In this document: one piece after another, positions 26,618 to 45,194 of the stretch
Layout of the letters: every line of letters begins with the position of its first letter
Numbering within the stretch: position 1 is the stretch's first letter
Origin: Spinactinospora alkalitolerans
Lineage (GTDB): Bacteria > Actinomycetota > Actinomycetes > Streptosporangiales > Streptosporangiaceae
Reading direction: 5' to 3'
NCBI RefSeq assembly: GCF_013408795.1
Contig: NZ_JACCCC010000001.1
Span: 3,162,001 to 3,226,000 of the forward strand
Length of the DNA: 64,000 bases
Notes under the pieces: generated by a model
What the model saw: the letters and a program-made list of their open reading frames with translations, nothing else
Told to the model about the DNA's origin: nothing
Database searches by the model: none
Position numbers and translations under genes: made by a program

Positions 26618-27346
26618 CTAGTCGGGGTCAGGAGGGCTCTCCACGAGTGACTGCTCGATGTAGAAGGGGCTGTGGTCGGGCAGGAGAGTCGATTCGAAGA
26701 CCTCGGCCGGCCGTCCGTCGGCGAGCCGGATGTGGCGCCGCAGCCGGAACACCGGGATGCCCGGCGGCCGGTCGAGGAGGGCTGCCTCCTCCTCCGAGAG
26801 CAGCCGCGGTTCGACGTACATCCGGGAGCTGTGGACGGGGACGCCGGTCCGCCGGAAGTAACCGATCGTCGTGAGGTCCTCCAGCGGCTCGTCGAGCAGC
26901 CGCGGAACGAGCGCGAACGGGATGACCGCGAGCTCGGTGGCGATGGGCCGCTCGGCGACGTCGAGCTTGACCCTGCGCAGTTGCACGACGGGGGTGTCGG
27001 GCTCGATGCCCTCCAGGTCGGCCGCCGCGTCCCGTGCGGGGATCACCCGCGCCTCCGACACGACGTGGCGGCCCTCGATCTCGGGGCCGGTGCTCAGCGG
27101 GCCGGCGAGGCGGAGCAGGTTGCGCTCGGGCGCCGCCCTGGCGACGAACGTGCCGCGCCTGCGGTAGCGGACGACCAGTCCCCGCTGCACGAGCTCCTGG
27201 ACGGCCCGCTGCACCGTCACCCGGCTCACACCGTAGGTCCGCGCCAGCTCGGCCTCGGTGGGCACTCGGGTGCCCGGAGGCCACGCGCCGGAGACGATCT
27301 CGGTCTCCAGATCGCTGCGGATCCTGTCGTAGAGTGCGAGCTCCAT
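26618..27346 (-). CDS. GntR family transcriptional regulator, UTRA (HutC) type
   Basis: 242 residues. The winged helix (PTEAELARTYGVSRVTVQRAVQELVQRGLVVRYRRRGTFV) covers about residues 25-70, followed by a UTRA effector domain ending ESTLLPDHSPFYIEQSL. ATG 27346 is chosen because a promoter-like pair ends only 6 bp upstream and there is no ribosome site, so the transcript is probably leaderless. As first gene of a GntR-oxidase set it probably regulates the adjacent oxidase and symporter genes. Confidence 0.9.
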   Translation of the reverse strand: MELALYDRIRSDLETEIVSGAWPPGTRVPTEAELARTYGVSRVTVQRAVQELVQRGLVVRYRRRGTFVARAAPERNLLRLAGPLSTGPEIEGRHVVSEARVIPARDAAADLEGIEPDTPVVQLRRVKLDVAERPIATELAVIPFALVPRLLDEPLEDLTTIGYFRRTGVPVHSSRMYVEPRLLSEEEAALLDRPPGIPVFRLRRHIRLADGRPAEVFESTLLPDHSPFYIEQSLVESPPDPD

Positions 27347-27352
27347 TATTTG

Positions 27353-27382
27353 AGTTAACCAATCCCCGTTTTGATAAGTCAA
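27353..27382 (-). promoter_or_regulatory. promoter of the GntR/oxidase operon, leaderless start
   Basis: On the minus strand TTGACT (27382-27377), an 18-bp spacer and TTAACT (27358-27353). The ATG of the regulator follows after 6 bp, which puts transcription and translation starts at nearly the same base. Confidence 0.6.
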
Positions 27383-32155: not shown

Positions 32156-33325
32156 TCAGGCGCCGAACCCCCGGATCCGGTGCTGCATGACCCGGTAGGG
32201 CCAGTCGTTGTCGGTGTTCCACTGGCTGACGGACAGGTGCAGATCGTCCAGGGTCGATCCGGGGATGATGTAGCCGCCGTAGAGCTGCGCGACGTGGGAG
32301 TCGTCCTCCGCGCCCCATTCGCCTCCCCAGATCAGGGTCCGGCGGTAGGCGGTGTGCAGGTTGGAGGTCGGCGTGTCCACCACGATGCCGTCGATCCGGT
32401 AGTCACCGGCGTTGAACCAGGTCAGCATCCATTTGCCGTCGAGCGGGCGCAGACACAGCTCGCCGAACGCGCCGTCCAGGATCGGCGTCGGCGGGTTGCC
32501 CCAGGCCCAGGTGCCGTCCCGGTACCCCCACGGCTCGTAGGCCGCCGGGTCGGCGATGCGCTCACTGCGGACCCGGTGCAGGATGATGGGCTTGCTGCGG
32601 GTGAACTCGGTGGAGTAGACGTAGACGTAGCCGTCGTTGCCCAGGCCCCAGGTCAGCAGCTGGAACAGGCCGCCGTGCAGGTCGCTGGGGAACTTCGCCC
32701 CCGTGTGGACCCAGGTCGCGCCGGAGTCGTCGGAGCGCCAGATCTCCGTCCACACCACGTTGCCCAGGCCCTGGTTGACCATCGCGTGCAGGTACATGGT
32801 GCCGCCGATGGTGATGACGTCGGAGGGGAGCACGGTGGAGAAGACCGGGTTGTCGTGCTCGTAGGGCCACAACTGCTGCGCCGCGTCCCCGCCCACGGCG
32901 CCGGACCACCGCACGCCGCCGTCGAGGTCGGTCGTCGTGGAGTAGAGGGCGACCGGTGAGCGCCACCATCCGCCGCCCACCCTCGCCTCCTCGAAGGTGT
33001 CGCCGAACACGAACAGCATCCGGCCGTCGGGGGTGACGGCGGGGACGCCCAGGTCGGTCGCCTCCATCCGGAACCGCGTCGTCAGGCCGGGGCCGGTGAG
33101 GTCGGCGATCTTGGTCACCTCCAGCGCCTGGGAGGCCGCTGCGCCCGGGGTTCGGGTCTGCGCCGCGGCCGCGCCGCCCATCGGCGCGCCGGCCAGGAGA
33201 CCGGAACCGACGACCGCTCCGGCGGCGGTCCTGAGGAACGCCGACCGGTTCATCGAGGGGCCCGCCCGCCCGGAAGGCGGGGCCGCCGCTGCCGGACGGG
33301 GGTTGCCGTCGTCGCTGACTCGCAT
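32156..33325 (-). CDS. secreted DUF4185 domain protein
   Basis: 389 residues from an ATG with GGGAG upstream. An ATG 12 bp earlier and MNRSAFLRT at 33253 are alternatives. NRSAFLRTAAGAVVGSGLLAGAP is a Tat-like or Sec signal region. The mature part has the five-bladed-propeller-like DUF4185 pattern with VTPDGRMLFVFGDTFEE and YVYVYSTEFTRSKPIILHRV. Related proteins are secreted by actinobacteria; some DUF4185 enzymes cleave arabinogalactan-type glycans. It is divergent from a sialidase-like gene and shares an operator-like motif with it. Confidence 0.82.
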   Translation of the reverse strand: MRVSDDGNPRPAAAAPPSGRAGPSMNRSAFLRTAAGAVVGSGLLAGAPMGGAAAAQTRTPGAAASQALEVTKIADLTGPGLTTRFRMEATDLGVPAVTPDGRMLFVFGDTFEEARVGGGWWRSPVALYSTTTDLDGGVRWSGAVGGDAAQQLWPYEHDNPVFSTVLPSDVITIGGTMYLHAMVNQGLGNVVWTEIWRSDDSGATWVHTGAKFPSDLHGGLFQLLTWGLGNDGYVYVYSTEFTRSKPIILHRVRSERIADPAAYEPWGYRDGTWAWGNPPTPILDGAFGELCLRPLDGKWMLTWFNAGDYRIDGIVVDTPTSNLHTAYRRTLIWGGEWGAEDDSHVAQLYGGYIIPGSTLDDLHLSVSQWNTDNDWPYRVMQHRIRGFGA

Positions 33326-33341: not shown

Positions 33342-33354
33342 GAGAAATCGATTC
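33342..33354. promoter_or_regulatory. operator-like motif, DUF4185 side
   Basis: GAGAAATCGATTC immediately upstream of the DUF4185 gene. The same motif with one extra base occurs at 33745-33760 in front of the divergent sialidase gene. Confidence 0.5.
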
Positions 33355-33744
33355 CCCCTTTCTTTCAACACCTCCCTGGCAATGTCAACAGGCGGTCGCG
33401 AAAATCCCTGAGAGTCCGCACCGAGTCGGACGGCCGCTTTGGCGCGGCATATTTCCGCTGCTCACAGCGCTTTTTCGACGTCTCCGCCTCCGCTGCGCCG
33501 TGGCGCGCCCATCGGGGGAAGCCGAGGCCCGCCGCGCGGATCCGGCGCGGACGCACCGGGCCGGGGAACAGGATCCGCCACCCCAAAGAGCCGAGAACCG
33601 GGCGATACCCGAAATATCCATTTCGGCACGGACCGGCCAACCGGCCTTCTCCGGACAGAAACACCCGCATTGACCTGCTGCTATTCCCGAACATGCAACA
33701 CCGCCGCCTCACCCCGGCGCATTTCTATCGTTGTAAATACGTCT

Positions 33745-33760
33745 GAGAAATCGTATTCTC
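33745..33760. promoter_or_regulatory. operator-like motif, sialidase side
   Basis: GAGAAATCGTATTCTC, an inverted repeat GAGAA-N6-TTCTC, 30 bp upstream of the sialidase start. The rest of the 390-bp divergent region (33361-33740) shows no gene; its base composition near 33700-33750 is unusually AT-rich, as expected for promoters. Confidence 0.55.
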
Positions 33761-33789: not shown

Positions 33790-35565
33790 ATGGCTCCCCC
33801 ACCCCGCCGACGGTCCCGCCGCTCGGTCCGGCGCGCGGCGACCGCGGTCGCCGCAGCGGCGCTCGCGCTGGCCACGACGGCGGTCCCCGCGTCAGCCCAC
33901 CCCGGCCACGTGCTCTACGAGCCCGACCCGGTGACCAACAGCGACGACAGGGCGTCCTACGAACACGCGATCCAGCTCTCCGACGGCACGATCCTGGCGA
34001 CGTTCGAGCGCCAACTCAGCACCGGCAGCGACCCCGGCAGGGGCTGGCTCATCTACCGCAGCACCGACCGGGGCGCCACCTTCGAGCGGATCGCCCGGGT
34101 CGAGCCGCACGGGCTGCCGGAGGCCACCAACGCGCTGCAACCCGCGCTGATGGAGTTGCACACCGACACCGGCGACCTCGAAGCGGGGACGGTCGTGCTC
34201 GCCGCGGAGACGGGCCAGGACGGCGGGTTCGACGTCCAGCTCTTCACCAGCACCGACAAGGGCGAGACCTGGAACTACCTCAGCACGCCGGAGCGCACCC
34301 GTCCCGGAACCGACGGGGAGCGCCGGATCTGGGAGCCGTTCCCGGTCCAGCTCGACGACGGCCGCCTCGTGGTCTACTACTCCGACGAGATCGTCCCCGG
34401 CCGCGAGCAGAACATCGCCTACAAGACCTCCGACGACGGCGGCCTGACGTGGAGCGCGCCGGTGGACGCGTGGAACCCCACCGGCCCCGACGACCGGCCC
34501 GGGATGTCCACCGTGGCCCGGATGGGCGACGGCCGCTACATCATGAGCGTGGAGTTCTGCGGCAACGCCAACGCCCCCGTCGACTACTGCCGGGTCCGGT
34601 TCAAGACCTCCGACGACGGGCTGGACTGGGGCGATCCCACCGACTGGGGGACGCGGCCGCAGACCGGCACCGGACACCTGCTGCACGGCAACCCGATGGT
34701 CGCCTGGTCCCCCGCCGGCGGCCCCGACGGCACCGTCATCCTGACCGCGGGCGCCCTGATCGAGAGCCTGGACCAGCCGCACACCGAGGCGGGCGGACAC
34801 GGGCAGACCCTCCTGGTCAACCACGACAACGGCGAAGGGGAGTGGCACGAGCTCACCGCCCCGATGCCCACGACTTACGGCGGCTACCAGTCGGGCTACC
34901 GCAATGCCGTCCTCCCCATCGACGACGGCGGCGACCTGCTGTTCCTCACCGCCTCGCACGTGGGCGGCGACACCGAGCGCAACCGCGTCGTCCACGGCAG
35001 CTCCAACGCGGGGGTCCTGCCCTACGACACCGCGTTCGCCGACGGAACGGACCTGGGCTGGGACACCTTCGGCGGCGACTGGTCGGTGGCCGACGAGGTC
35101 TACTCCGAGAGCGAGGGCGGCCCGGGCCACAAGTCGGTCGCGGGCTCGACCGCGTGGACGGACTACACGATGGAGGGGCGGGTCCGGCTCGACGGCACCG
35201 GAAACGCCGGGCTCCTGGTGCGGGTCAGCGATCCGGAGGTCGGCCCGGACGCCCACGAGGGCTACTACGTCGGCATCAGCGACGAGGACGGCGGCGCGTT
35301 CATCGGCCGGCAGAGCCACGACTGGACGCGGCTGGGCGACGTGCGCCCCATGCCCGGCGGAATCGAGCGGGGCGCGTGGTACGACGTGTCGGTGACGGCC
35401 TCCGGCTGCACGTTCGCGGTCCGCGCCGAACCCGCCGACGGCAGCGGGGAACCGGTCGCCTTCGAGGAGACCGATCCCGGCTGCGCGGCCTCCGGAGCGA
35501 TCGGGGTCCGCACGTTCGGCACCGCGGCCTCGTGGCGCGACATCACGGTGACCCCGGCCGGCTGA
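33790..35565 (+). CDS. secreted exo-alpha-sialidase-like protein (BNR/Asp-box propeller) with C-terminal jelly-roll domain
   Basis: 591 residues; ATG with GGAGG seven bases upstream. The signal peptide ends near residue 36 (AVPASA/HPG). Four Asp-box type motifs (STDRGATF, STDKGETW, TSDDGGLTW, TSDDGLDW) define a sialidase-fold propeller of about residues 37-410. Residues about 430-591 (DTFGGDWSVADEVYSE..., NAGLLVRVSD..., GYYVGISDEDGG) form a concanavalin-like/laminin-G-like domain. It probably trims a terminal sugar from a glycan. The sialidase arginine triad cannot be assigned with certainty, so another exo-glycosidase activity is possible. Confidence 0.88.
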   Translation: MAPPPRRRSRRSVRRAATAVAAAALALATTAVPASAHPGHVLYEPDPVTNSDDRASYEHAIQLSDGTILATFERQLSTGSDPGRGWLIYRSTDRGATFERIARVEPHGLPEATNALQPALMELHTDTGDLEAGTVVLAAETGQDGGFDVQLFTSTDKGETWNYLSTPERTRPGTDGERRIWEPFPVQLDDGRLVVYYSDEIVPGREQNIAYKTSDDGGLTWSAPVDAWNPTGPDDRPGMSTVARMGDGRYIMSVEFCGNANAPVDYCRVRFKTSDDGLDWGDPTDWGTRPQTGTGHLLHGNPMVAWSPAGGPDGTVILTAGALIESLDQPHTEAGGHGQTLLVNHDNGEGEWHELTAPMPTTYGGYQSGYRNAVLPIDDGGDLLFLTASHVGGDTERNRVVHGSSNAGVLPYDTAFADGTDLGWDTFGGDWSVADEVYSESEGGPGHKSVAGSTAWTDYTMEGRVRLDGTGNAGLLVRVSDPEVGPDAHEGYYVGISDEDGGAFIGRQSHDWTRLGDVRPMPGGIERGAWYDVSVTASGCTFAVRAEPADGSGEPVAFEETDPGCAASGAIGVRTFGTAASWRDITVTPAG

Positions 35566-35809: not shown

Positions 35810-37450
35810 ATGACACCGCAGCGGCCGCGGCGCGCGCGGCCGGGGAGAGCGGTCCTCGCGGCGGGGTCCGCGGTCGCCGTCGCGATCGGCGGCTGCGCTC
35901 CGCTTGTCACCCCGCAGGAGGCGACCGCGCCGGAGCAGAGCGTGGTCGAGGCCCCCACCCGCTCCGGCGGCGAGCTGGTCGTCGGGCTCGACGCCGAGCC
36001 CGACGCGCTGGACCCGACGCTGGCCGGCACGCTGGTCGGCCGGCAGGTCTTCGCGAGCATGTGCGAGAAGCTCTACGACACCGGCACCGACCTGTCGCTC
36101 GTCCCCCAGCTCGCCGCCGACCTGCCGCGGCTCTCCGACGACGGGCTCGTGGCGACCGTCCCGCTGCGCACCGACGCCGTGTTCAACGACGGCACCGAGT
36201 TCGACGCCGAGGCCGTGAAGACCAGCCTGGACCGACACCGGGAGCTCTCCGGCTCCTCGCGCGGCACCGAGCTCTCCGCGGTGCGAAACGTCGAGGTGGT
36301 CGACGACCACACCGTCCGCATCGAGCTGTCGCGCCCCTACGCGCCGCTCACATCGGTGCTCGCCGACCGCGCCGGGATGATCATGTCGCCGGAGCAGCTC
36401 GACGAACTGGGCGAGGACTTCGGCCGGCACCCGGTCTGCGTGGGCCCGTTCTCGTTCGTGGAGCGGGTCGCCCAGGACCGCATCGTGGTCGAGAAGAGCG
36501 ACCTCTACTACGGCGCCGACGAGGTCGAACTGGACCGGATCACCTACCGGGCCATCACCGACGACTCGATCCGGCTCGCGAACCTGCGCTCCGGCCAACT
36601 CGACGCAGCCCTGCAGATCAACCCCAACGACGTCGCCACCGTCTCCACCGAGGACGGGCTGGAACTGCTCAGCCAGCCCTCCACCCAGTACATGGGCATC
36701 ACCGTGAACATCCGCAACTCCGACGGGGTCGGCGAGGAGCCCGGCCAGGTGGAGGGCGAACTGGCCCGAAGCGACGAACTGCGCGAGGCGTTCGCGCTGT
36801 CGCTGGACCGCGCCATGATCAACGAGGTGGTCTTCAGCGGCCTCTACGCCCCTGCGTGCGGCCCCATTCCACCCACCAGCGAGTACGCCACCGAGGAGAC
36901 CCAGGCCTGCCCCGACTTCGACCCCGACCGGGCGAGGGAGCTGGTCGCGGAGTCGGGAGCCGACACACCGGTCCCGGTGGACATGATGATCCCCAACGAC
37001 CCCACCAATCTGCGCCTGGGCCAGGTGGTCCAGGCCATGGCCGCCGAGACCGGGTTCCGGGTGCGGTTGCGCCCCACCGAGTTCGCCTCGTCCACGGCCG
37101 AGGGCCAGGCCGGCAACTTCGAGACCTACGTGGTCGGCTGGTCCGGCCGACCCGATCCCGACGGCAACATCGCCCAGTTCTTCACCGAGGGCGGCAGCAA
37201 CAACTACAGCGGCTACGCGACCGAGGAGACCGACCGGCTCATCCGGGAGGCCGCGGCCGAGAACGACCCCGAACGACGCAAGGAGCTGTACTCCGACCTG
37301 GTGCCGCGGCTGCGCGGCTTCAACAGCATCATCTACCTCTACCGGCAGCAGATTTACGTCGCGCACACCGACGAGGTCGCCGGCCTGCAGGTCTACCCCG
37401 ACGGGCTGCTGCGGCTCGGCACCGCCGGCTACGTGGCGGAAGGCGGGTGA
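35810..37450 (+). CDS. ABC transporter substrate-binding lipoprotein, SBP family 5 (Dpp/Opp type)
   Basis: 546 residues. The signal peptide ends in a lipobox with Cys29 (AVAIGGC). GGELVVGLDAEPDALDPTLAGTLVGRQVFASMCEKLYD is the start of the SBP_bac_5 domain, and the C-terminus has RPDPDGNIAQFFTEGGSNNYSGYATEETDRLI. It would capture peptides, nickel-chelates or oligosaccharides outside the cell. It is the first gene of a four-gene operon with 4-bp spacing or overlaps, and lies next to the sialidase gene. Confidence 0.92.
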   Translation: MTPQRPRRARPGRAVLAAGSAVAVAIGGCAPLVTPQEATAPEQSVVEAPTRSGGELVVGLDAEPDALDPTLAGTLVGRQVFASMCEKLYDTGTDLSLVPQLAADLPRLSDDGLVATVPLRTDAVFNDGTEFDAEAVKTSLDRHRELSGSSRGTELSAVRNVEVVDDHTVRIELSRPYAPLTSVLADRAGMIMSPEQLDELGEDFGRHPVCVGPFSFVERVAQDRIVVEKSDLYYGADEVELDRITYRAITDDSIRLANLRSGQLDAALQINPNDVATVSTEDGLELLSQPSTQYMGITVNIRNSDGVGEEPGQVEGELARSDELREAFALSLDRAMINEVVFSGLYAPACGPIPPTSEYATEETQACPDFDPDRARELVAESGADTPVPVDMMIPNDPTNLRLGQVVQAMAAETGFRVRLRPTEFASSTAEGQAGNFETYVVGWSGRPDPDGNIAQFFTEGGSNNYSGYATEETDRLIREAAAENDPERRKELYSDLVPRLRGFNSIIYLYRQQIYVAHTDEVAGLQVYPDGLLRLGTAGYVAEGG

Positions 37451-37454
37451 GCCG

Positions 37455-38411
37455 ATGGGACGCTACCTCGCGGGGCGGCTGCTGCAGTCGCTGGTGACCC
37501 TGTTCCTGGTGTCGATCGTGATCTTCGTCGGCGTCCGGTCCATGCCGGGCGATCCGGCGCTGCTGTTGGCGGGCGAGGAGGCCGACCCGACCACCGTCGC
37601 CGAGATCCGCGAACGGCTCGGCCTGGACCGGCCGCTGCTCGTGCAGTACCTGATCTGGCTGGTCCAGATGGCCCGGTTCGACTTCGGCGAGTCGATCCGC
37701 TCCGGGCTGCCCGTCACCGACGTCATCCTCACCCGCATCCCCGTCACCGTGGAGCTGGCGCTGCTGAGCCTGCTGGTCGCCGCCGTGCTCGGGATCGCAT
37801 CGGGCGTGGTCGCCGCCGTCCGGCAGGGCCGGCCCGCCGACTGGGCGGCCAACGCGGTCGCGCTGCTCGGGCTGTCGATCCCGAACTTCTGGATGGGGCT
37901 CATGGGGATCCTGGTCTTCGCCGTGGCGCTGGGCTGGCTGCCCGCATCGGGCTACGTGCCGCTCCTCGACTCCCCCGCGGGCAACCTGACCAGCCTGGCC
38001 ATGCCCGCCATCGTGCTGGGCACCGGGCTCGCAGCGGTCATCATGCGCCAGACCCGCTCGTCAATGATCGAGGGGCTCGGCTCCGACTACGTCCGCACCG
38101 CGCGCGCCAAGGGCATGTCGCGGCGGCGGGTCGTCCTGGTGCACGCGCTGCGCAACAGCATGATCACCGTGCTGACCATCCTCGGCCTGCAACTGGGCGC
38201 GCTCATCTCCGGCACGGTCGTCACCGAGCAGATCTTCGTGCTGCCGGGCTTCGGCAGACTCATGGTCGAGTCGGTCTTCACCCGCGACTTCCCGATCATC
38301 CAGGCCGCGGTGATGGTCACGGCGGTCGGCTACATCGCGGTCAACCTCGCGGTCGACCTGCTCTATTCGGTCGTCGACCCGCGGATCCGGGTCCAGGAAG
38401 GAACGCGATGA
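37455..38411 (+). CDS. ABC transporter permease, DppB-like
   Basis: 318 residues and six membrane segments. The N-terminal MGRYLAGRLLQSLVTLFLVSIVIFV and the EAA loop YVRTARAKGMSRRRVVLVHALRNS are typical of DppB/OppB permeases. It starts 4 bp after the binding-protein stop and overlaps the next permease gene by 4 bp. Confidence 0.94.
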   Translation: MGRYLAGRLLQSLVTLFLVSIVIFVGVRSMPGDPALLLAGEEADPTTVAEIRERLGLDRPLLVQYLIWLVQMARFDFGESIRSGLPVTDVILTRIPVTVELALLSLLVAAVLGIASGVVAAVRQGRPADWAANAVALLGLSIPNFWMGLMGILVFAVALGWLPASGYVPLLDSPAGNLTSLAMPAIVLGTGLAAVIMRQTRSSMIEGLGSDYVRTARAKGMSRRRVVLVHALRNSMITVLTILGLQLGALISGTVVTEQIFVLPGFGRLMVESVFTRDFPIIQAAVMVTAVGYIAVNLAVDLLYSVVDPRIRVQEGTR

Positions 38412-39298
38412 CGGCCGAGGCCACGCGGCCCCGCGAGACGGCGACCTCCGACGCACCCGCGGCGCGCGGCCGAGCGATGCGCCGGCTGCTGCGCAACCCC
38501 GCCGGGATGTTCGGGCTCGTGCTGGCGGCGCTGCTCGTCGGCGCGGCGCTGCTCGCCCCGGTCATCGCCCCGCACGCCCCCGAGGCCGTCGACTTCGGCA
38601 CGCTGCGCCGACCGCCGTCGTGGGCCCACTGGCTGGGCACCGACGAACTGGGCCGCGACCAGCTCTCGCGCGTCCTGTACGGGCTGCGCTCCTCGCTCGC
38701 GGTCGGACTCCTTGCGGTGCTGATCGCCGCCGCCGTCTCGGTCCCGCTCGGACTGGTCGCCGGCTACTACCGGCGCTGGGGCGACCCGATCGTGTCCCGG
38801 CTCAACGACGCGCTGATGTCGTTTCCGTTCCTGGTGCTCGCGGTCGGCCTCGCGGCCATCCTCGGACCGTCGCTGCTCAACGCGGCGATCGCCATCGGGG
38901 TGTCGCAGGTCCCGAACATGGTCCGGGTGGTCCGCGGCGAGACGCTGCGGCTGGCCAACGAGAACTACGTCGAAGGGGCGATCGCGGTCGGCGCGAGCGA
39001 CGCCTCCGTGCTCGTCCGGCACATCCTCCCCAACTCGGTCAACGCGCTGCTGATCCAGATCACGGTCGGCATCCCCGCCGCGATCATCGGCGAGTCGCTG
39101 CTGTCCTTCCTGGGGCTGGGCGTACAGCCGCCCACTCCCTCACTGGGCACCATGCTCTCCGGGGCGCAGCCGTTCTTCGCGCTGGCCCCCTGGCTCGCCG
39201 TGTTCCCCGGACTGGTGATCGTCGTGGCGACGCTCGCCTTCAACCTGCTCGGCGACGGACTCCGCGACGCCCTGGACCCGAAGGGACGGCCCCGATGA
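38408..39298 (+). CDS. ABC transporter permease, DppC-like
   Basis: 296 residues. An N-terminal cytosolic extension, a first helix after AMRRLLRNPAGMFG, and then a six-helix permease core with LGTDELGRDQLSRVLYGLRSS and the EAA loop YVEGAIAVGASDASVLVRHILPNS. It pairs with the DppB-like subunit. ATGA overlaps occur at both ends. Confidence 0.94.
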   Translation: MTAEATRPRETATSDAPAARGRAMRRLLRNPAGMFGLVLAALLVGAALLAPVIAPHAPEAVDFGTLRRPPSWAHWLGTDELGRDQLSRVLYGLRSSLAVGLLAVLIAAAVSVPLGLVAGYYRRWGDPIVSRLNDALMSFPFLVLAVGLAAILGPSLLNAAIAIGVSQVPNMVRVVRGETLRLANENYVEGAIAVGASDASVLVRHILPNSVNALLIQITVGIPAAIIGESLLSFLGLGVQPPTPSLGTMLSGAQPFFALAPWLAVFPGLVIVVATLAFNLLGDGLRDALDPKGRPR

Positions 39299-41067
39299 GC
39301 AGCACGGAGACCACGGGCGCCGAGACCGCGGCAGCGGCGCCCCCCGTCCTGCGGTTCAGCGATCTGTCCGTGGGGTTTCACACCGAGGGCGGCCCGGTGC
39401 GGGCCGCCTCGGGGGTCACCTTCGACGTCGGCCCGGCCGAGGTGGTCGCCGTGGTGGGGGAGTCGGGCTCCGGCAAGACCGTCAGCGCGATGTCGCTGCT
39501 CGGCCTGCTGCCCAACGGCGCCTCGGTCGAGGGATCGGCCGCCCTCGCCGGCGAGGAGCTGATCGGAGTCGGCGAGCGGCGGCTCCGGCGGATCCGCGGC
39601 AACGAGATCGCGATGATCTTCCAGGAGCCCATGACCTCGCTGAACCCCGTGTTCACCGTGGGCTGGCAGCTCGCCGAAGTGCTGCGCGGCCACAAGGGGA
39701 TGTCGCGGTCGGCGGCGCGCGAACGCTCAAGGGAACTGCTGGAGCTGGTCGGAATCCCCGACGCCGCCCGGCGGCTGGGGGCCTACCCGCACCAGCTCTC
39801 CGGCGGCCAGCGCCAGCGCGTCGTGATCGCCATGGCCGTGGCCTGCGAACCCAAGGTGCTCGTCGCCGACGAGCCGACCACGGCGCTCGATGTCACCGTC
39901 CAGGCCGGGATCCTCGACCTCCTGCGCGACCTGCGCGACCGGCTGCGCACCGCGATCGTGCTCATCACCCACGACATGGGGGTGGTCGCCGACATCGCCG
40001 ACCGGGTCGTGGTCATGTACCGCGGCGAAATCGTCGAGACCGGCCCGGTCGCCGAGCTCTTCGCCGCGCCGGAGCATCCCTACACCCGCGGGCTGCTGGC
40101 GGCGGTGCCGCACCTCGGCCGGGCCGAGACGGCGCCGCGGGACCCGGACTCCCTCGCTGCCGTCGGCGGCCTCAAGAGGTCCGACGCCGGCGGGGACGCC
40201 GAGGAGAAAAGGACCGCAGGGACCACCGAGGCCGCCGAGGCCGCGGCCGACGCGTCGGCGGCGTTGGAGATCAGCGACCTCGTCGCGACCTACGGGGCGT
40301 TGACCGCGGTCAACGGGGTTTCGCTGTCGGTCGCGCCGGGCGAGGTGTTCGGCCTCGTCGGCGAGTCGGGGTCGGGCAAATCCACGGTCGGCCGGTGCGC
40401 GGCGGGGCTGAAGAGCCCCGCGTCGGGCACCGTGGCCATCGCCGGGCACGACATCACCGGACTCTCCCGGCGCAGGATGCGCCCGCTGCGCCGGGAGTTC
40501 GGCATCGTGTTCCAGGACCCGGCCTCGTCGCTGGACCCGCGGATGACGATCGGCGCCTCCGTCGGCGAACCGCTGCGCACGCACCGGCTGTGCCGCGGGA
40601 GCGAACTGGCCGATCGGGTGGCCACGGCGCTGGAGGAGGTGTCGTTGGCCCCCGACCTGCGCAACCGGTTCCCGCACGAGCTGTCCGGCGGCCAACGGCA
40701 GCGGGTCAGCATCGCGCGTGCGCTGGTGCTGGGCCCCAAGCTGCTCATCGCCGACGAGCCGACCAGCGCCCTCGACGTCTCGGTGCAGGCCGACGTGCTG
40801 GAACTGTTCCTGGACCTGCAGCGGCGGCTGCGGTTCGGCTGCCTGTTCATCAGCCACGACCTGGCGGTGGTGGAACTGCTGGCCGACCGGGTCGCGGTGA
40901 TGCGCGGCGGCGAGCTCGTCGAGACAGGCGCCACCGCTTCCGTTCTGGCCGCCCCGCAGCACGACTACACCCGGAGGCTGCTCATGGCGGCCCCGGTCCC
41001 CGACCCCGCCGAGCAGCGCCGCCGCCGCGAGGCCCGCTCCGGCGGCGCTCCGGGGCCCGCCGGGTGA
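39295..41067 (+). CDS. fused dipeptide-type ABC ATPase (DppD-DppF fusion)
   Basis: 590 residues containing two complete nucleotide-binding domains. The first has Walker A GESGSGKT at 55-62, signature [14 protein letters not shown] and Walker B VLVADEP. The second has Walker A GESGSGKS at 356-363, [14 protein letters not shown] and LLIADEP. An Ala/Glu-rich linker (about residues 285-325) joins them, and each half ends with the oligopeptide-type tail ([22 protein letters not shown]). This fusion replaces the separate D and F subunits and completes the importer. Confidence 0.95.
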
Positions 41068-41075
41068 GATCGGGG

Positions 41076-41125
41076 CCGGCGCGGCCGGCCTCGGAGGCCG
41101 CGACCGCGGACCGCTGCCGCGCCGG
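41076..41125. terminator. GC-rich stem-loop between the ABC operon and the sulfatase gene
   Basis: A 9-bp outer stem (41076-41084/41117-41125) with an inner short hairpin, between convergent genes. Confidence 0.4.
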
Positions 41126-41173
41126 GCTGGCGCGTACGGAGCGGTCCCCGCGAAGGGACCCGGCCCGCGGCCG

Positions 41174-42487
41174 TCACCCCGGGGCCTCGATCAGCGGCGG
41201 CCGCTCCCCCGCCTCGACCATGCGCCGGACGAGCCGTTCGCGCAGCCGCTCGACGACCCCCGAGTGCGACGCCGCGCCGACGAGGTTGTGCAGTTCGTCG
41301 GGGTCGGCCTCGAGATCGTAGAGGTAGGCGTCGACGTAGCGGTCGGCCGACGGGGTGTTCCAGGCGTCGGCGCCGGGCGCGACGACCCCGTACTTCCACC
41401 GCTCCGTCCGCAGCGCCCTGCCCACCTCCGACTCGCTGACCTGGACCAGCACGTCGTTGGGCCGGGTGTCGGCCTCCCCCCGAAGGAGGGGCACGAGCGA
41501 GTGCCCGTCCATGTCCTCGGGGACCGGGAGCCCGGCGGCCTCCAGCAGCGTCGGGGGCAGGTCGACGTGGCTGACGAGCCGGGACGGGGCCGCTCCGGCG
41601 CCCAGCTCCGGCCCGGACAGCACCGTGGGGACCCTGATCGAGGCGTCGTGGCAGCTCCGCTTGTACTCGCCGTTACGGGTCTTGAAGTGGCACCCGTGGT
41701 CGGAGGTGAAGAGCACGACGGTGTCGTCGGCGAGCCCCAGCTCCCCGAGGGCGGTCGTGAACCTGCCGAGGCACTCGTCCACCCGCTTGACCATCCCGTA
41801 GTAGCCCGCCAGGTGCTCGTCGGAGTTCCCGCCGAGAGCGGCCAGGTCACCGGGGGTCCAGGCCCCCTCGTAGCGCTCCCGGTAGCCGTCGGGCGCGGGG
41901 TAGTCGTCGCGCTGGTTCTGGTGGTGGGGTTCGAGGAAGGACAGGAACAGGAAGAACGGGGCGTCGCGCTCCCGCCCGATGTAGTCGATCGCCGCGTCGG
42001 TGATCGCGTCCGCGCGGTACCCGGGGAGGTCGTGGGGCTCCCCGTGCTCGTCGTAGAGGGTGGTGCGGTAGGCGTCGGAGGTGAACTCGAGCAGGTTCGA
42101 GGCCAGCCAGTGCCGGTACCCGCCGCGCTGCTCGGGCCGCACCGGGCCGGCGACGTCGTCGTCGGCGAGGTGCCACTTGCCGATGTAGGCCGTCTCGTAG
42201 CCCGCCTCGCCGAACCGGTCGGCCAGGGTGGGGACGTCGTCCGGCAGGGGGATCCCGTTGCGGAAGCAGCCGATGCCGGCCGGGTACCTGCCGGTCTGCA
42301 GGGACGCGCGCGAGGGGGCGCACACCGGCTGGCAGGTGAAGGAGTTCGCCACGTGCACCCCCTCCTCGGCCATCCGGTCGAGGTTCGGGGTCAGGCCGAG
42401 CGGGTTGCCGTGCAGACCCGTCGTGTCCCAGCGCTGCTGGTCGGTGAGGAACACGACCGCGTTCTTCGCGGATCGCCGGTCGTTCAC
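41174..42487 (-). CDS. sulfatase (Cys-type, formylglycine-dependent)
   Basis: 437 residues of the type I sulfatase/alkaline-phosphatase superfamily. The metal motif LTDQQRWD lies near the N-terminus. The maturation motif CAPSR (Cys56, to be converted to formylglycine) sits in CQPVCAPSRASLQTGRYP, and GKWHL plus SDHGCH follow. No signal peptide is seen, so it acts inside the cell, consistent with an adjacent transporter that brings in the sulfate ester. It lies downstream of the MHS transporter gene (79 bp) on the same strand, opposite a LacI regulator. Confidence 0.93.
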   Translation of the reverse strand: MNDRRSAKNAVVFLTDQQRWDTTGLHGNPLGLTPNLDRMAEEGVHVANSFTCQPVCAPSRASLQTGRYPAGIGCFRNGIPLPDDVPTLADRFGEAGYETAYIGKWHLADDDVAGPVRPEQRGGYRHWLASNLLEFTSDAYRTTLYDEHGEPHDLPGYRADAITDAAIDYIGRERDAPFFLFLSFLEPHHQNQRDDYPAPDGYRERYEGAWTPGDLAALGGNSDEHLAGYYGMVKRVDECLGRFTTALGELGLADDTVVLFTSDHGCHFKTRNGEYKRSCHDASIRVPTVLSGPELGAGAAPSRLVSHVDLPPTLLEAAGLPVPEDMDGHSLVPLLRGEADTRPNDVLVQVSESEVGRALRTERWKYGVVAPGADAWNTPSADRYVDAYLYDLEADPDELHNLVGAASHSGVVERLRERLVRRMVEAGERPPLIEAPG

Positions 42488-44075: not shown

Positions 44076-44159
44076 GGGCCTCGTTCGCCACACGTCCAGA
44101 CCGGTGCGGACAAGCGCGCGACGTTGCGACCGGGGCGAACCCCGGATAACGTTCACAAA

Positions 44160-45194
44160 GTGGCAGCGACCGAGCCTCCGCGCCGTCCGACGCAGCGCGA
44201 CATCGCGCGACGCGCGGGAGTCTCCACCGCCACCGTCTCCTACGTCCTCAGCGGCCGGCGCGGAGGAGCCAAGCCCCCGCCGCAGGAGACGCGCGAGCGC
44301 GTCATGCGCGCCGTCGCCGAGATCGGCTACCAGATCGACCACTCGGCCCGCAGCCTCCGCCGCCGCCGCACCGACCTGGTCGGACTGATGTACCCGGCGC
44401 CGTCGAGCCCGTGGTCGGACCGATTGGCCGAGCAGATGCAGGCGGCCGCCGCCGAGCGCGGCCTGGCGGTCGTCGCGCTGCCGGTGAGCGAGAGCACGCC
44501 GAGCGACGCGCTCCTGCGCGTCCTGCGCGAGCGCTACGTCGACGGCGCGATCCTGCTGCCGGACTGCCCGCTGGGCGGCGCCGAGCTCTCCGCGCTGGCG
44601 CGGCAGGGCCTGTCCCTGGTGGTCTTCGACGACGAGCTGCGCCCCGACGGCTTCGACGTGGTCCGCCAGGACCGCGCCCGGTCCTGCCGCGCCGCGGTGG
44701 AGCGGCTGGTGGCGCTGGGCCATCGGAGGATCGGCTACCTCGCCCACCCCGGCGAGAGCGAATGGGCGCCCGCGCGGTCGGTGAAGCTGCACGGCTACCG
44801 GCGGGTGCTCGGCGAGCACGGGATCGGCGTCGACCCCGACCTGGTGCGCCCGGTGGCCGACTCCCGCCCGGACGCCTACGCGGCGGTGCGCGAGCTGCTG
44901 GGCCGGCCCGACCCTCCCACGGCGCTGCTCTCGGCCACCGACCGCGCCGCCATCGACGCCATCTGGGCCGCGCGGGACCTCGGCGCCGCCGTCCCCGAGG
45001 AGCTGGCGGTCATCGGGATCGGCAACATCCCCGAGGGGCTGGTGATCTCCCCGGCCCTGACCACCGTCGGGGCGCCCGTCCTGGACTTCTCCCGCGAGGT
45101 CGCGCGGCTCTTCGCCCGCCTCGAATCCGCCTCCCCGCTCCCCGACGCGGTGCTCGCCGCGCCGTGGGAGCTCATCGTCCGGGAGTCGGGCTGA
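44160..45194 (+). CDS. LacI family transcriptional regulator
   Basis: 344 residues from a GTG at 44160. TQRDIARRAGVSTATVSYVLSG is the N-terminal helix-turn-helix with hinge helix ARSLRRRRTDLVGLMYP. The periplasmic-binding-like effector domain follows (PTALLSATDRAAIDAI, VIGIGNIPE, TTVGAPVLDFSREVARL). A TAACGT stretch ends 7 bp before the start with no ribosome site, so leaderless expression is possible. Divergent from the MHS/sulfatase genes, it is their likely repressor and probably senses their substrate or product. Confidence 0.93.
   Translation: MAATEPPRRPTQRDIARRAGVSTATVSYVLSGRRGGAKPPPQETRERVMRAVAEIGYQIDHSARSLRRRRTDLVGLMYPAPSSPWSDRLAEQMQAAAAERGLAVVALPVSESTPSDALLRVLRERYVDGAILLPDCPLGGAELSALARQGLSLVVFDDELRPDGFDVVRQDRARSCRAAVERLVALGHRRIGYLAHPGESEWAPARSVKLHGYRRVLGEHGIGVDPDLVRPVADSRPDAYAAVRELLGRPDPPTALLSATDRAAIDAIWAARDLGAAVPEELAVIGIGNIPEGLVISPALTTVGAPVLDFSREVARLFARLESASPLPDAVLAAPWELIVRESG

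Follow-up and report, generated by a model that had tools for sequence, protein, structure and literature searches.

Two genes for glycan-active proteins diverge from a 452-bp spacer in the 64-kb stretch of DNA analysed here (the window; 72% G+C, part of one 6,684,050-bp contig), and a similar short motif stands in front of each. Which regulator might bind these motifs, and which glycan might the two proteins share as a target? An earlier note on this DNA proposed that a single regulator, encoded away from the two genes, controls both, and that they have a common target. The two genes and the elements between them are listed below in order of position.

32156..33325, minus strand: GH183 (DUF4185) gene, endo-D-arabinanase family (PF13810, E 3.5e-81; ORF listed from 33337)
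33342-33357, no strand assigned: predicted operator O1, GAGAAATCGATTCCCC, lying between promoter and start codon of GH183 (sequence, genome scan, matrix)
33359-33364, minus strand: weak -10-like AAGAAA of the GH183 gene
33383..33388, minus strand: -35 box TTGACA of the GH183 gene (same layout before the GH183 gene of a related genome, G007)
33731..33759, plus strand: possible GH93 promoter, TTGTAA-17-TATTCT, read by eye, with its second hexamer within O2
33745-33760, no strand assigned: predicted operator O2, GAGAAATCGTATTCTC, upstream of the GH93 gene (sequence, genome scan, matrix)
33790..35565, plus strand: GH93-like exo-arabinanase gene with a C-terminal PF06439 domain (homology search, domain match)

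The divergent genes and the sites between them

Both motifs were confirmed where the earlier note had placed them, one before each of the divergent genes. They are 16-bp imperfect palindromes with CG at the centre, and in each, by eye, six of the eight position pairs agree with its own reverse complement. In these features they look like LacI-type operators; passages of PMC4052901 give a central CG for 1173 of 1303 LacI-family regulators. O1 lies 4 nt upstream of the first in-frame GH183 ATG (33337) and 16 nt upstream of the second (33325). The latter is preceded by GGGAG, as judged by eye, and is the likelier start. The end of O2 is 29 nt from the GH93 ATG (33790).

Within the window, GAGAAATCG occurs twice, at O1 and O2, with no third copy; 4 of 100 shuffles reach two copies. 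The pattern GAGAAATCGWWTTC, with up to three mismatches, has nine matches, four of which are O1 and O2 on both strands (shuffle mean 2.53; 0/100 shuffles reach nine). A repeated 9-mer in a spacer of this kind is not unusual: when the 452-bp sequence was shuffled 2000 times with dinucleotides kept, 86% of the shuffles held at least one. The spacer alone thus leaves room for a chance repeat, which the cross-genome matrix tests described below make unlikely; the motif signal comes from the genome-wide scan and the relatives, not from the shared 9-mer alone.

The GH183 gene is the only DUF4185 match in the genome. Its closest solved chain is 8an0 (E 5.2e-32), and other solved relatives include EatA chains and the endo-alpha-D-arabinanase 8hhv (E 1.6e-14). 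Residues D33, D51, and E243 are essential in EndoMA1, according to passages of PMC10509167. They align, in the 8hhv alignment and as counted by hand, with D95, D113, and E293 of the protein read from 33337. Read by eye, the protein is probably exported. Arabinogalactan, which the earlier note had named as a possible target, fits this family assignment.

The divergent partner had been labeled a sialidase, and this label did not hold. Its closest solved relatives are the GH93 exo-1,5-alpha-L-arabinanases 2ydt, 2w5n, and 3a71 (E 8.7e-26 for 2ydt, up to 2.2e-24), whereas neuraminidases appear only at E 1.1. A GH33-type reading was therefore rejected and a sialylated target is unlikely. Residues E182 and E255 are the same in all five GH93 proteins compared, and glutamates of 2ydt align with them; they are the putative catalytic pair of the family. 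A single-sequence structure model of the protein had a mean pLDDT of 35.9 and was unusable for assessing the six-bladed propeller fold. This protein, also read by eye, is probably exported as well. A scan for RNA structure at the GH93 leader gave no signal (z -0.48). Downstream of the gene, at 35810-42487, an operon for a peptide-type ABC importer and a gene for a sulfatase follow, and no operator-like site was found in this interval.

Related sites in the chromosome and in other genomes

For the earlier note, many random occurrences of the motif would have counted against its proposal; genome-wide and cross-genome scans did not show them. With up to two mismatches, GAGAAATCGNNTTCYC matched the genome at 17 forward and 21 reverse positions; the pattern reversed, as a control, matched at 3 and 3. 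Six places differ from it by at most one mismatch, i.e., O1, O2, 5847347, 5849994, 4560578, and 3573897. Two of them belong to one locus, 2.65 Mb from the window.

5847347 (L046:9348): between a FucI-type isomerase gene, followed by an FGGY kinase gene, and a lacI gene
5849994: between a DUF2961/GH172 gene and a sugar ABC transporter operon

This GH172 gene (5848676-5849455) is the sole DUF2961 match of the genome, so that the lone GH183 and the lone GH172 gene are both at operator-like sites. In one genome, four such sites accompany GH183, GH93, fucI/lacI, and GH172/ABC genes. The GH172 protein retains the stretches YGEGDD and GTGTED, which by numbering contain glutamates 233 and 254, reported as catalytic in DgGH172c (chain 8ah3, judging from residue numbering). 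Its closest solved relative is the alpha-D-fructofuranosidase 7v1v (E 5.8e-85), with ExoMA1 (8ic8) farther away at E 7e-34, and no signal peptide was seen by eye. Among solved structures, the isomerase is closest to the D-arabinose isomerase 3a9r (E 1.5e-17), and L-fucose isomerases score almost as well (7e-17). The neighboring kinase scored highest, under the cut-off, as a xylulokinase. Toward GH172, at 128 bp from the ABC site, there is another, weaker match both here (L046:11867, score 17.5) and in G007 (L085:13093, 15.5); it is probably a separate GH172-side operator.

Other sites were observed elsewhere in the chromosome. That at 4560578 (L047:8579-8594), GAGAAATCGATTTCGC, lies some 20 bp upstream of a gene that reads from its sequence as a Ser/Thr kinase. 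It has the highest matrix score among the genome matches (26.1), lacks TTGACA, and could be a chance match or a fifth target; an evident link to the regulon is absent. The site at 3573897 is at the edge of predicted ORFs, also with no evident link. A further match, GAGGAATCGATGTCTC at L049:5595-5610 (genome 6421594, score 21.7), overlaps the start of an uncharacterized ORF at L049:5604. Finally, CAGAAACCGGTTTCTA (L046:183-198) and AAGAAACCGCTTTCTA (L046:1423-1438) flank another lacI gene beside a GH28 gene; a further LacI regulon, distinct from the present one, probably has its operators here.

At E 1e-40, GH183 relatives were found in 9 of 250 sampled family genomes, including the present one. 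The isomerase was found in two of 11 relatives searched, G007 (90% identical) and G099 (67%); G099 is absent from the genomes with a GH183 match. Sites were located in both.

G007, L078:10323: GAGAAATCGATTTCAC, before the GH183 gene, at the same place as O1
G007, L085:10739: at fucI/lacI
G007, L085:13221: at GH172/ABC
G099, L086:10548, 10563, 537, 14793, and 19125: at fucI, near two lacI genes, and at GH172 and ABC genes

In G099, a large protein with DUF2961-like sequence, by our own reading, is encoded directly after fucI (L086:6692-9112), in addition to a second GH172 gene.

The site before GH183 is present in both genomes that have the isomerase and GH183, and absent in all seven that have GH183 but lack the isomerase, a small sample of two genomes with and seven without. 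In these seven, the 19-kb stretches around GH183 contain no site at up to three mismatches, and the matrix built from the four sites of the present genome yielded no match scoring 15 or more in their 133,007 bases. The GH183 proteins of three of the seven are 79-83% identical to the window protein, compared with 59% for that of G007; thus, simple relatedness does not account for the pattern.

The matrix test was carried out in both directions. The matrix from the four own sites ranked the eight G007 and G099 sites as the top eight in 58,003 bases (all at least 19.4; next 15.7). In the window, the matrix from these eight sites only gave its two highest scores to O1 (24.4) and O2 (22.2), the next match reaching 14.1; O2 was the lowest-scoring of the four own target sites. 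It is this matrix that scores the sites at 4560578 (26.1) and L049:5595 (21.7) in the own genome. Leave-one-out scores were 20.2 for O1 and 23.3 for O2. No counterpart of O2 is known in the relatives, since no relative checked has a GH93 gene adjoining GH183.

All eight GH183, fucI, and ABC promoters in the three genomes have TTGACA (six cases) or TTGACG (two) 5' of the operator, which places the operator at or just past the -10 region. This layout was not seen at the lacI side, the GH172 side, the Ser/Thr kinase site, or GH93, and a general promoter scan listed neither the GH183 nor the GH93 promoter at its threshold.

A candidate repressor and its possible target

O1 and O2 match the switches of a distant D-arabinose-type cluster, so one programme for D-arabinan use is probable. 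We consider it likely that these sites are operators of a single distant LacI-family repressor, whose regulon is split between two places and has recruited the GH93 gene. This reading starts from the sites, their conservation, the gene families, and the catalytic residues of GH183 and GH172. As long as inducer is lacking, LacI would occupy the promoters of GH183, GH93, the isomerase-kinase genes, and the ABC importer, or the DNA just behind them; GH172 and the lacI gene itself would probably be under its control too. D-arabinose or a D-arabino-oligosaccharide, as the presumed inducer, would release the repressor. In mycobacterial-type arabinogalactan or lipoarabinomannan, D-arabinan chains would then be cut internally by the exported GH183 enzyme and trimmed at their ends by the GH93-like one, likewise exported. 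Fragments would be brought into the cell by the ABC transporter, D-arabinose would be freed by GH172 in the cytoplasm, and the isomerase and kinase would convert it to D-ribulose 5-phosphate. That the repressor binds, what induces it, which substrate is cut, that the enzymes are exported, and what GH93 does are all inferred from the genes and sites. The genome has no match to Emb-family arabinosyltransferases (the control, Corynebacterium glutamicum, was positive), which makes turnover of its own wall unlikely.

The common target proposed in the earlier note thus gains support from the sequence evidence. Its chemical nature could still differ: the LacI regulon may be real and serve another furanoside or fucoside (alpha-D-fructosides, L-fucose glycans, or plant L-arabinan), with GH183 and GH93 as accessory enzymes. 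The nearest solved relative of GH172 is an alpha-D-fructofuranosidase, the isomerase is nearly as near to L-fucose isomerases and FucI-type enzymes act on L-fucose too, and the GH93 enzymes in the rows of a review that bear on this family use L-arabinan (PMC11813348). However, GH183 has all three residues that are essential in an endo-D-arabinanase, an aldose isomerase is unnecessary for free fructose, and published D-arabinan loci, in the passages that describe them, share this gene set. Moreover, an L-arabinose-type locus of the genome (AraA match; GH51 and AraB read from sequence) has its own LacI and no operator-like site at up to three mismatches in 19.5 kb. We regard another sugar as rather unlikely.

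The best candidate regulator is the LacI encoded at about 5.8476 Mb (L025/L046), a protein with PF00356 and Peripla_BP domains. The operator is in the promoter region of its own gene, and sites of the same type occur at the lacI loci of G007 and G099. Among the 28 LacI-family matches in the genome, it is the one most similar to the LacI of G007 (90%) and to each of the two G099 LacIs (48% and 47%). The proposal of one regulator encoded away from the two genes is therefore supported at the sequence level. A regulator encoded in the window, such as its LacI (44124-45194) or GntR (26618-27382), would be nearer to O1 and O2, but is a very unlikely occupant of these sites: the recognition helix of the window LacI reads STATVSYVLSG, against SPATASRVLNG in the distant protein, scores in the window besides O1 and O2 stay at or below 14.1, and the relatives carry the same site at the corresponding lacI locus.

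That O1 and O2 are chance resemblances, and GH183 and GH93 under other control, is barely credible: repeated 9-mers are common in spacer shuffles and chance may account for one or more of the strong genome sites (that at the Ser/Thr kinase gene), but the matrix from other genomes puts both sites at the top of the window and the G007 GH183 gene, only 59% identical, has the same site at the same place.

Three further observations count against a distant LacI governing D-arabinan use: the nearest solved chain of GH183, 8an0, carries only the label 'Putative secreted protein', the top-scoring genome site precedes a Ser/Thr kinase gene without evident link, and the regulon was seen in only two other sampled genomes. 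The place of GH93 in it is a separate matter. GH93 matches were found in 6 of 120 sampled family genomes, including the present one, and G007 has none; a first scan of named genomes gave no case of GH93 together with GH183. We then had 18 other GH93 loci, five from the family and 13 among the matches listed in a second scan (at least 13). None of the 18 contained GH183, GH172, or FucI at E 1e-8, and two (L100 and L101) are doubtful relatives in which that search did not show GH93. In their 365,130 bases, the own matrix found one site scoring 19 or more, in an A+T-rich genome (L101). Membership of GH93 thus depends on the operator in one genome. In Cohnella silvisoli, a GH93 relative (L089:9926-12292) matches the window protein over its full length, apparently with the C-terminal domain twice; GH183, GH172, and FucI were not found near it.

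As a tentative idea, the GH93-like protein might be an exo-D-arabinanase, i.e., a member of a family known for plant L-arabinan, shifted to the mirror-image sugar and releasing D-arabinobiose. With GH116 missing, it perhaps takes over the beta-capped ends of mycobacterial D-arabinan; a GH116-type domain (PF04685) has no match in the genome and was positive in 3 of 14 control genomes.

Relation to known systems

What appears to be new is the operator, the assigned regulator, and the inclusion of GH93; the type of system is known, D-arabinan clusters having been published for Actinobacteria. The open-access literature, with subscription papers mostly outside it, yielded no LacI regulator of D-arabinan or D-arabinose isomerase genes in Actinobacteria. 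Open-access literature contained no report of GH93 together with GH183, and the papers listed there for D-arabinan and exo-D-arabinofuranosidase do not mention GH93. For D-arabinan use, the analysis names a specific operator and a regulator candidate, and it predicts that a bacterium without Emb-family arabinosyltransferase carries a programme digesting mycobacterial-type wall arabinan. It also makes a GH93-like enzyme a candidate for action on D-arabinan, a polymer for which few enzymes are known and which is relevant to mycobacterial wall studies.

The local sugar regulons of the LacI family described in parts of PMC4052901 share with the present one a 16-bp even palindrome with central CG, a site near the regulator's own gene, and sugar genes as targets. 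Fucose and arabinose words are absent from the text of that source that was searched, and no description of the present operator was found. Known GH93 exo-1,5-alpha-L-arabinanases (2ydt, 2w5n, and 3a71) are related in sequence to the window protein (E 1e-24 to 1e-26) and have the two glutamates in common. They differ in that the GH93 rows of PMC11813348 list fungal enzymes on L-arabinan, whereas the present protein is bacterial, carries a PF06439 domain, and belongs to a predicted D-arabinose-type regulon. PUL42 of D. gadei (PMC10115798) likewise contains GH183 and GH172 enzymes and a fucose isomerase; it is a Bacteroidota cluster, and the relevant passages do not describe a LacI operator.

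The closest parallel in gene content is the D-arabinan locus of Microbacterium arabinogalactanolyticum, for which passages of PMC10509167 describe GH183, GH172, GH116, an ABC importer, an isomerase, and a kinase. The same passages report that D-arabinose induces its four GH183 genes, GH116, and the binding-protein gene, and GH172 mildly. GH183, GH172, a sugar ABC importer, isomerase, and kinase are common to both organisms. In Microbacterium, they form, as described there, a single cluster with four GH183 genes and GH116, whereas in the present genome they lie at two places 2.65 Mb apart, with one GH183 gene, a GH93-like enzyme, and a predicted LacI operator joining the parts.
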